In this document: one piece after another, positions 16,572 to 18,987 of the stretch
Position numbering within the stretch: position 1 is the first letter of the stretch
How the letters are laid out: each line of letters begins with the position of its first letter
Origin: Psychroflexus aestuariivivens
GTDB lineage: Bacteria; Bacteroidota; Bacteroidia; Flavobacteriales; Flavobacteriaceae
Reading direction: 5' to 3'
Length of the DNA: 64,000 nucleotides
Assembly: GCF_004010055.1 (NCBI RefSeq)
Contig: NZ_RQVT01000056.1
Location: forward strand, 1-64,000
The notes under the pieces: model-generated
Told to the model about the DNA's origin: nothing
Database searches by the model: none
What the model saw: the letters and a program-made list of their open reading frames with translations, nothing else
Position numbers and translations under genes: made by a program

Positions 16572-16602
16572 TTGTCATATTCATTAATAGATACTAAATT
16601 TG
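16572..16602 (+). promoter_or_regulatory. Promoter of the coiled-coil gene-zapA unit
   Basis: TTG (16572-16574), 20-bp spacer, TAAATTTG (16595-16602): an exact Bacteroidota consensus promoter. It is divergent from the promoter of the M48 unit, about 50 bp away. Confidence 0.7.
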
Positions 16603-16627: not shown

Positions 16628-16918
16628 ATGAGTAAGTTGATAAAAAATCTGGATTCTCTGGAAGAAAGCATCAAAAAGTTGATGCTTGAGAACAAAAATT
16701 TAAAACAAAAAAACAGCGAATTAGAACATCAACTCAATAATAATTCTACTTCAGTTTCAGAATTAGCCACTGAAATTGAACTTTTAAAAAAAGAGAATAA
16801 AACACTCAGAACAGCCAACGCAATGCTTGGCAGTAGCGAATATAAAAGAGAAACAAAACTCAAAATAAATAGTTTGATTAAAGAAATTGATGAATGCATT
16901 ATTCAATTAGCAGATTAA
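16628..16918 (+). CDS. Short coiled-coil protein encoded just before ZapA
   Basis: 96 residues, almost entirely predicted coiled coil: heptad-like Leu/Ile spacing from residue 4 to about 62 (LIKNLDSLEESIKKLMLE, then ELATEIELLKKENKTL), followed by a short basic hinge and a C-terminal helix (KLKINSLIKEIDECIIQLAD). It has no signal peptide or membrane segment. It ends one base before the zapA start, so the two are almost certainly co-translated. By position and shape it is a candidate ZapA partner comparable to ZapB or ZauP, but no sequence relationship can be claimed by eye. Confidence 0.75.
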   Translation: MSKLIKNLDSLEESIKKLMLENKNLKQKNSELEHQLNNNSTSVSELATEIELLKKENKTLRTANAMLGSSEYKRETKLKINSLIKEIDECIIQLAD

Positions 16919-16919
16919 A

Positions 16920-17213
16920 ATGTCAACAGATAAGCTAAAAATAAAATTATCGATTGCAGACCGCGTTTATCCATTAACCATTAGACCGGAGCAAGAAGAA
17001 GGCCTTAGAAAGGCTGCTAAGCGAATTAGTGATACCATCAAAAAACTTGAACAAAGTTATGCAGTCAGAGACAAACAAGACGTTCTTGCCATGAGCGCTT
17101 TGCAATTTGCTGCAGAAATCGAACAAAGTCAACTTTCATCTAAAAGTGAAATTAATCAAGTCGAAATGAAACTTGAAACTTTGGACGAAATGATCAAGAA
17201 ACAATTAAACTAA
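16920..17213 (+). CDS. zapA: Cell division protein ZapA
   Basis: 97 residues, typical ZapA length. The N-terminal beta part has the family pattern KIKLSIADRVYPLTIRPEQEEGLRKAAKRI, and the C-terminal half is a long helix (DVLAMSALQFAAEIEQ and onward) forming the antiparallel coiled coil of the tetramer. ZapA cross-links FtsZ filaments at the division septum. The gene follows the coiled-coil gene with 1 bp between them and is followed by a structured RNA and rny. Confidence 0.9.
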   Translation: MSTDKLKIKLSIADRVYPLTIRPEQEEGLRKAAKRISDTIKKLEQSYAVRDKQDVLAMSALQFAAEIEQSQLSSKSEINQVEMKLETLDEMIKKQLN

Positions 17214-17231
17214 CGTTCATTACATAAATCG

Positions 17232-17411
17232 ACACTGCCTGTATTAGTCGTTACCTTTTTGATAAACTCAACACTTAACTATTAAAAAGGGTGAGTTTCA
17301 GTTGCTAAAGCAAGCCGCCACTTTTGTGAAGCGGATCCTTGATCAGCTGAGTAGCCCTAAACCTGTTTTTACGGAGTTTTATACAAAACGACACTAATAC
17401 AGGCTTTTTTA
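17232..17411 (+). ncRNA. ssrS: Probable 6S RNA (6S-Flavo type)
   Basis: A 180-nt non-coding, GC-richer stretch lies between zapA and rny. Its ends pair: 17237-17248 (GCCTGTATTAGT) is perfectly complementary to 17393-17404, extended by a CG/CG pair across a 2-nt bulge. The closing stem is followed at once by six T residues (17405-17410), so it carries its own terminator. Inside are further helices, such as AAACTCA with TGAGTTT and a CCGC/GCGG hairpin near 17310-17333, giving a rod with a central open region as in 6S RNA. 6S RNA binds and sequesters the housekeeping RNA polymerase. The zapA-ssrS order is also found in enterobacteria. I recognise this by context and fold, not by alignment. Confidence 0.75.
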
Positions 17412-17424
17412 TTATATATAAATT

Positions 17425-18987
17425 ATGGAAATAGCAATTACAATAATAGCAGCAATAGTAGGATTGGTCATCGGTTTTTTAATTTCAAAAAATCTAGACA
17501 AAAAGAGTGCAAAAGGCACGCTGAAATCTGCAGAAAAAGAAGCTGAAAAAATCATCCGAGAGGCTGAAAAAGAAGGCGAAAGCGTCAAAAAAGACAAAAT
17601 ATTACAAGCCAAAGAGAAATTTATCGAGCTCAAATCTGAGCACGAAAAAGTTATTATGTCTCGTGACAAAAAAATCAGCGATGCTGAAAAACGCACTAAA
17701 GACAAGGAGTCTCAAGTCTCAAGCGAATTGGCAAAAAATAAAAAAATGAATGCTGATCTTGAGGAAAAACTGAAAGATTACAATTACAGAACAGAATATC
17801 TTGAAAAACGACAAGAAGAAATCGACAAGATTCTTCAGCGTAAGATCAATCAACTGGAAGTTATCAGCGGCTTGAGTGCCGACGATGCCAAAGCGCAACT
17901 CATGGAATCGCTTAAGGAAACTGCTAAAGCGGAAGCCATGCAAATGATTCAAGACACAGTTGAAGAAGCCAAAATGACGGCCCAACAAGAAGCCAAGAAA
18001 ATTGTCATCAACACTATTCAACGTGTTGGTACAGAAGAAGCTGTCGACAATTGCGTATCTGTTTTCAACTTAGAAAGTGACGATGTAAAAGGACGAATAA
18101 TTGGTCGTGAAGGTCGAAATATTCGCGCTATAGAAGCTGCGACTGGTGTAGAAATTATTGTGGATGATACGCCTGAAGCTATTATTTTATCTTGCTTCGA
18201 TTCTATCCGAAGAGAAGTGGCTAGATTATCCCTTCACAGATTGGTGACCGATGGTAGAATTCACCCAGCTAGAATTGAAGAAGTCGTCAAGAAAACAAGA
18301 AAATCGATTGATGAAGAAATTATCGATATCGGAAAACGTACAATTATTGATTTAGGAATTCACGGGTTACATCCGGAATTGGTCAAAATGGTTGGACGTA
18401 TGAAATACCGTTCTTCTTATGGACAAAATCTTTTACAGCACTCGAGAGAAGTTGCCAAACTTTGTGGCATTATGGCTTCAGAATTAGGATTGAATCCTAA
18501 ACTTGCCAAGCGTGCTGGATTATTGCATGATATCGGAAAAGTGCCAGAAACTGAAACAGAACTGCCGCATGCAATACTAGGTATGCAGTGGGCTGAAAAA
18601 TATGGCGAAAAGGACGAGGTTTGTAACGCAATTGGTGCTCACCACGACGAAGTAGAAATGACTTCACTCCTATCTCCAATTGTTCAAGTTTGTGATGCCA
18701 TTAGTGGTGCAAGACCTGGTGCAAGACGCCAAGTTTTAGATTCTTATGTTAAACGACTAAAAGATTTGGAAGACATTGCGTTTGGATTTGGTGGTGTGAA
18801 AAAAGCTTACGCTATTCAAGCTGGACGTGAATTGAGAGTAATCGTTGAAAGTGAAAAAGTTACAGACGAAAAGGCGTCTTCGCTTTCTTTCGAGATTTCG
18901 CAGAAGATTCAAACTGACATGACATATCCAGGTCAAGTAAAAGTGACCGTCATACGTGAGACACGTGCTATAAATATTGCCAAGTAA
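17425..18987 (+). CDS. rny: Ribonuclease Y
   Basis: 520 residues, the usual size. An N-terminal membrane anchor (residues 2-21) is followed by a long charged coiled coil (about 28-195). A KH RNA-binding domain has its GxxG loop in IIGREGRN (225-232), and an HD domain has LLHDIGK with His368/Asp369 and AHHDEVE further on. RNase Y is a membrane-bound endoribonuclease that starts mRNA decay. It follows the 6S RNA terminator by 14 bp, so it either has its own promoter inside the RNA region or depends on readthrough. Confidence 0.97.

Follow-up and report, generated by a model that had tools for sequence, protein, structure and literature searches.

The 64-kb window, i.e. the whole stretch of DNA analyzed here, which is probably flavobacterial, carries between zapA (16920–17213, + strand; PF05164, 69.9 bits for a cut-off of 23.8) and rny, the gene of RNase Y (17425–18987, + strand; TIGR03319, 644.5 bits for a cut-off of 454.35), a segment at 17232–17411 that raises two questions: what does it encode, and from which promoter is it transcribed? 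A sequence-only reading of this DNA had proposed a 6S RNA gene, pointing to ends that pair perfectly, a T run and the lack of a reading frame across the segment, and all three observations hold. 6S is a small RNA by which most bacteria regulate their RNA polymerase. The 5' arm of the closing stem (GCCTGTATTAGT, 17237–17248, + strand) is the exact reverse complement, over 12 of 12 bases, of the 3' arm (ACTAATACAGGC, 17393–17404, + strand), a helix seen both in its pairing and in its covariation. Six Ts, read directly from the sequence, follow as a terminator-like run (17405–17410, + strand), and the ATG of rny at 17425 stands, as had been stated, 14 nt past the last of them. No ORF of at least 20 aa crosses 17232–17411, and two tiny ones lie within it (31 aa with a TTG start and 29 aa with a GTG start). 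The fold of this segment reaches -54.1 kcal/mol, a z-score of -5.3 against 200 dinucleotide shuffles, none of which was as low. Judging from the closing stem and the T run, the RNA, a homolog of ssrS, would probably extend over 17235–17410 (+ strand), and it has the features of a 6S rod, namely 170 to 200 nt with a terminal stem and a terminator-like end.

The covariance-model search that had been suggested as a check of this proposal returned the 6S-Flavo family of Rfam (RF01685) at 17266–17379 (+ strand) with 103.9 bits for a gathering score of 85 and an E-value of 3.1e-17. This is the single gathering-level Rfam match in the whole window, and it supports the 6S assignment; such a class had, as stated earlier, already been described (PMC2864571). 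The Rfam core is shorter than the RNA because the model (108 positions) does not include the closing stem. In an alignment of 20 of these RNAs, a T-rich run lies 3' of the stem in all 20, and 22 of 34 pairs have changed on both sides for a shuffle mean of 9.9, none of 500 shuffles reaching the observed covariation. Furthermore, 94.5% of the cells are paired, versus no more than 44.3% after sliding of the partner; for the closing stem itself (helix 1), 8 of 13 pairs have changed on both sides and 95.8% of the cells are paired. RF01685 matches 30 of 40 related genomes, 24 of them above the cut-off, and none of 14 control genomes. As it falls below its cut-off outside the genus of the window, it was rejected as a general 6S tool for the phylum, and a model of our own, R1 (188 positions, closing stem included), was therefore built. 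With strict filters, R1 matches only 37 of 247 Bacteroidota genomes and so must itself miss distant 6S RNAs. Altogether, the RNA specified by 17235–17410 is almost certainly a 6S RNA of the 6S-Flavo class, which it resembles in sequence and structure with a full-length match to the model (PMC2864571); to the 108-nt core, the present analysis adds the closing stem, the T run, an upstream element and the gene context. The RNA is itself a member of a known family, and what seems to be new is its apparent mode of production.

The order in the window is zapB-like, zapA, 6S and rny, the last three on the same strand. The zapB-like gene (16628–16918, + strand) encodes a small coiled-coil protein with a weak match to PF06005 (ZapB, E 0.00059) that lies below the curated cut-off. 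Among the 30 loci found with RF01685, rny adjoins the RNA in every one, and zapA is present in 29 by tblastn and in the thirtieth (L028) by profile. At E ≤ 0.001, ZapA is found in at least 245 of the 247 genomes of the phylum and RNase Y in at least 239 (at least 199 over its cut-off). Sixty further stretches were sampled, mostly zapA-rny gaps of other families; R1 matches 18 of them at E ≤ 1, five of which (L129–L133) had been preselected because of an earlier R1 match. The Rfam scan covered 40 of the 60, from deep lineages of the phylum, and the general 6S family RF00013 occurs in 15 of these at E ≤ 1, just one being over the cut-off. The zapA-rny gap thus yields 6S-Flavo matches near the window and general 6S matches further off. 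When the zapA profile was applied to 80 named RNase Y loci, zapA was found upstream of rny in many non-Bacillota loci; in the 40 genomes out of these 80 that were searched, RF00013 matches 18, and of the 12 whose match was located, 8 have it closely preceding rny and sharing its strand, whereas it lies elsewhere in the other four. These eight belong to two Ignavibacteria, one Bacteroidetes MAG, WOR-3, Myxococcales and three deltaproteobacteria (L198, L227, and L212, in whose locus zapA was not found). R1 also detects 6S in five of seven named Sphingobacteriaceae loci.

The zapA-6S-rny arrangement recurs, in sum, in the taxonomic order to which the window belongs, in Sphingobacteriaceae and in Ignavibacteria; beyond the phylum, it occurs in single assemblies of WOR-3, Myxococcales and deltaproteobacteria. 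The arrangement does not hold in Bacteroidales, where zapA and rny are too close for a 6S gene between them, and 6S lies outside the zapA-rny gap in other families as well. In E. coli K-12 the order is zapA-ssrS-fau, in agreement with the earlier statement that enterobacterial ssrS directly follows zapA, and a ZapB-ZapA-SsrS-(FAU1)-EVE array has been published for beta- and gammaproteobacteria (PMC7641849). These arrays are like the window in that zapA, often preceded by zapB, is immediately followed by 6S, and differ in the gene downstream of 6S, which is rny in the window. The conservation of zapA-ssrS across phyla, as previously claimed, is therefore supported and even wider than claimed, because rny belongs to it too, although it is not universal, as Bacteroidales and the other families with 6S outside this gap show. 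That E. coli, Bacteroidota and several further phyla share the zapA-6S order points to an old origin of this arrangement, and the zapA-rny spacer is a place to seek 6S genes that score too low in Rfam. Wehner et al. 2014, reportedly the main survey of 6S, may already have published the 6S gene order in Bacteroidota.

The question of the promoter was addressed with a sigma-A-type pattern, in which the -33 box is TTG. The -7 box of Bacteroidota is TAnnTTTG (PMC9723704). One such promoter, TTG-N20-TAAATTTG (16572–16602, + strand), stands upstream of the zapB-like gene and is the sole match to the pattern from the start of the locus (L044), about 1.5 kb upstream, through the 6S region. The pattern was counted in 55 loci that have 6S in place; 24 of these come from 24-odd genomes of the window's own genus and near kin, and the counts therefore lack phylogenetic independence. 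Upstream of zapB-zapA, 52 loci have the full pattern, where shuffles predict 1.2; in the 120 nt preceding 6S it is found in none (expectation 0.1), and within the 6S region in one, i.e. at chance level (expectation 0.7). The -7 box alone is found at these three places in 55, 1 and 7 loci, the last value again corresponding to chance (7.2 expected). A sigma-A promoter belonging to 6S itself was rejected for now in view of the 0 of 55 loci with the full pattern, and so was a promoter for rny inside 6S, where the pattern is at chance level; the pattern is of the sigma-A type, and a promoter of another sigma type would escape it. For the expression of rny, the sequence-only reading had left the choice between readthrough of the 6S terminator and an internal promoter; readthrough is now favored, because a sigma-A-type promoter in the 6S region occurs at chance level, and the second option loses ground for the same reason. 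The situation is different where 6S is located elsewhere: in 23 such loci (15 of family f22, with neither zapA nor rny in their flanks, six Bacteroidales assemblies and two further loci), the full pattern is found in 10 and the -7 box in 18, and in Bacteroidales a sigma-A-type promoter lies just upstream of 6S in five of the six assemblies. From these counts we infer that the 6S gene of the window lacks a housekeeping promoter, and it is probably transcribed from the promoter of zapB. In Bacteroidales MAG L306, GTTCATTGAAAAAGG stands between the sigma-A-type promoter and 6S, immediately ahead of the latter, an order like that of rrn leaders.

Both the missing promoter of 6S and a conserved element directly 3' of the zapA stop had been overlooked in the earlier reading. 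This boxA-like element, GTTCATTACATAAA (17215–17228, + strand), holds the single occurrence of the core GTTC[TA]TTA[CA]A in the 64-kb window; the loose pattern occurs 3' of the stop in only 1 of the 42 window ORFs of at least 150 aa. Across loci the conserved block is C-GTTC(T/A)TTA. Of 66 loci that have 6S in place, 59 carry G[TC]TC[TA]T within 45 nt of the zapA stop, for an expectation of 3.2; these loci are again not phylogenetically independent. When they are grouped, 18 of 22 groups have the element in most of their members; among the four groups that fail, it overlaps or just precedes the zapA stop in f10 and f15. It is absent from families f5 and f12, where 6S is in place, and from all 12 zapA-rny loci without detected 6S, which belong to other lineages (0.8 expected). 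Its position ranges from about -11 to +11 of the zapA stop, with one mis-anchored row set aside, namely L052, which was anchored on a wrong site in the 26-locus alignment used for column conservation. Furthermore, it stays by the stop where inserts shift 6S by about 100 to 120 nt (L074, L077 and L206); the inserts of about 100 nt between element and 6S in these Pedobacter-like loci look repeat-like by eye. A GTTC-type scan of the 60 spacers relied on a loose pattern with many matches in genes or in 6S and was used by eye rather than for counts. Against a general role of the element, inspection by eye does not show it in 7 of 9 Ignavibacteria/Kapabacteria-type loci (L185–L187 and L189–L192), nor in the WOR-3, Myxococcales and deltaproteobacterial loci or in the E. 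coli spacer. Rikenellaceae L308/L257, left out of the 23 loci considered above, shows 6S beside rny, with the box present and no TAnnTTTG.

The likeness to boxA was examined with the rrn leaders of relatives, and no 16S was found in the assembly of the window's genome. Sites such as GTTCATTAACATATTG and GTTCTTTGAAAATA occur in these leaders about 100 to 150 nt ahead of 16S. We infer that they are boxA sites because they fit GYTCTTTAANA, the gammaproteobacterial boxA consensus of rRNA operons and suhB (PMC5725501). A profile was built from 20 sites of 20 genomes, picked by eye; it leaves out G011, whose site is that of G010, G247, which duplicates G132, and G026, which aligns ambiguously, and the rrn leaders of L032 and L036 are too short to be read. 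This profile recognizes the element at p < 0.01 in 11 of 22 genus representatives and in none of 12 controls, and none of 40 column-permuted profiles gets beyond 4 of 22 (at p < 0.02). The other 11 representatives, most Sphingobacteriaceae among them, fail this threshold, and the window copy, which lacks one base of the most frequent rrn form, is weak as well (p = 0.12). The element shares a GTTC(T/A)TT(T)A core with the boxA of rRNA operons and suhB, and the 6S-linked copies of L020, L029 and L257 match the gammaproteobacterial consensus; it differs in preceding a 6S gene inside a protein-coding operon. A literature search conducted mostly at the title level found no link between 6S and boxA, and the text examined from the 6S-Flavo description (PMC2864571) discusses neither promoter nor boxA. 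On this resemblance, the chances that the element functions as a boxA appear about even; its absence from the loci listed above, a different element in family f31 and the box-like sites at 4 of the 23 6S genes located elsewhere count against such a function. Several single-contig genomes (G143, G210, G112, G042 and others) gave no 16S match, possibly owing to withheld or masked stretches rather than biology.

Two other explanations of the element have to be weighed. According to the first, 6S would be free-standing with an unrecognized promoter of its own, of which the GTTCTTTA element would form the -10-like box read by an alternative sigma factor. The -10 boxes of ECF sigma factors contain CGT, and the C before GTTC is indeed conserved (1.57 bits), about 20 nt before the stem in the window's family; a flavobacterial ECF-type motif likewise has CGT in its -10 region (PMC9723704). 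However, none of the 44 positions before this C forms a conserved -35-like column (at most 0.42 bits in the 26 loci), and the spacing between the element and 6S is variable (about 20 to about 120 nt), which speaks against a promoter because a promoter should hold its distance to the RNA whereas an RNA signal need not. Since, in addition, the element fits the rrn-leader sites better than permuted profiles do and 6S genes located elsewhere use sigma-A -7 boxes, this explanation is unlikely.

The second keeps transcription from the zapB promoter and sees in the element a cleavage or binding site on the RNA that sets the 5' end of 6S, or else a part of the zapA 3' end. Its closeness to the zapA stop and its absence from the 12 zapA-rny loci without 6S would fit, but its resemblance to rrn leaders would not, nor would the box-like sites present at 4 of the 23 6S genes away from zapA-rny and the GTTCTTTAACATA site that precedes 6S in Rikenellaceae L257, where zapA is about 900 nt away, and we regard it as slightly less probable still than an alternative-sigma promoter. 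Finally, that the segment is merely a structured 5' leader acting in cis on rny, directly 5' of which it lies, can be rejected as very improbable given the above-gathering RF01685 match and since 6S homologs occur, by the 6S models, away from rny in other families.

We return to the single transcript as the best overall explanation, to which we give a modest preference: a zapB-zapA-6S-rny RNA from which 6S is excised and in which rny is reached by readthrough, perhaps with the assistance of boxA. Transcription would start from 16572–16602 and proceed through zapB, zapA, 6S and rny, and the mature 6S RNA would be cut out of this transcript. The closing stem and the T run would act as a partial terminator, so that rny would be expressed by readthrough. 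The putative boxA after the zapA stop would load NusB-S10 on the elongating polymerase ahead of the structured RNA, as in rRNA operons, and NusB, which is encoded in the genome, together with S10 might help the polymerase past the 6S terminator and help the long-range closing stem to form. In E. coli, 30S assembly makes use of the boxA of rRNA and of the helix between leader and trailer (PMC10250234); the closing stem of 6S with its upstream boxA would be a small analog of that pair.

As to the role of the RNA, 6S has been detected in transcriptomes of Bacteroidota (PMC7366714 and PMC9723704), and that of Bacteroides thetaiotaomicron, which is of the same phylum and the same kind as the window RNA, has product RNAs (PMC7366714); a difference is that the Bacteroidales assemblies examined have 6S outside zapA-rny. 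By homology to the Bacteroides RNA, the 6S of the window would bind and sequester sigma-A RNA polymerase and serve as a template for product RNAs. More tentatively, and with slightly less than even confidence, we propose that in much of Bacteroidia a promoterless 6S is made like rRNA, being cut from the zapB-zapA-6S-rny transcript with an upstream boxA recruiting the Nus complex, and that a 6S gene leaving the operon gains a sigma-A promoter. If true, a single promoter and the Nus complex would link 6S, a global regulator of RNA polymerase, with cell division (ZapBA) and with mRNA decay (RNase Y), and 6S maturation and RNase Y output would be coupled to the antitermination machinery.

Some minor features of these loci deserve mention. 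In the f31 loci L122–L125 and L127, a different conserved element, GTTACATTGAAA-like, lies between zapA and 6S. The f5 loci L071–L073, with 6S in place and no GTTC element, have a hairpin-like GGGAA...TTTTTTTCCC in the gap, and the boxA-like rrn site GATCATTGACATACAA occurs in the f5 genomes with readable rrn leaders (G132 and G247). Lastly, in deep lineages of the phylum (L138, L140 and L153), pheT is found by Pfam ahead of zapA-6S-rny, a place taken in the window by a divergent gene for an M48 CAAX protease.
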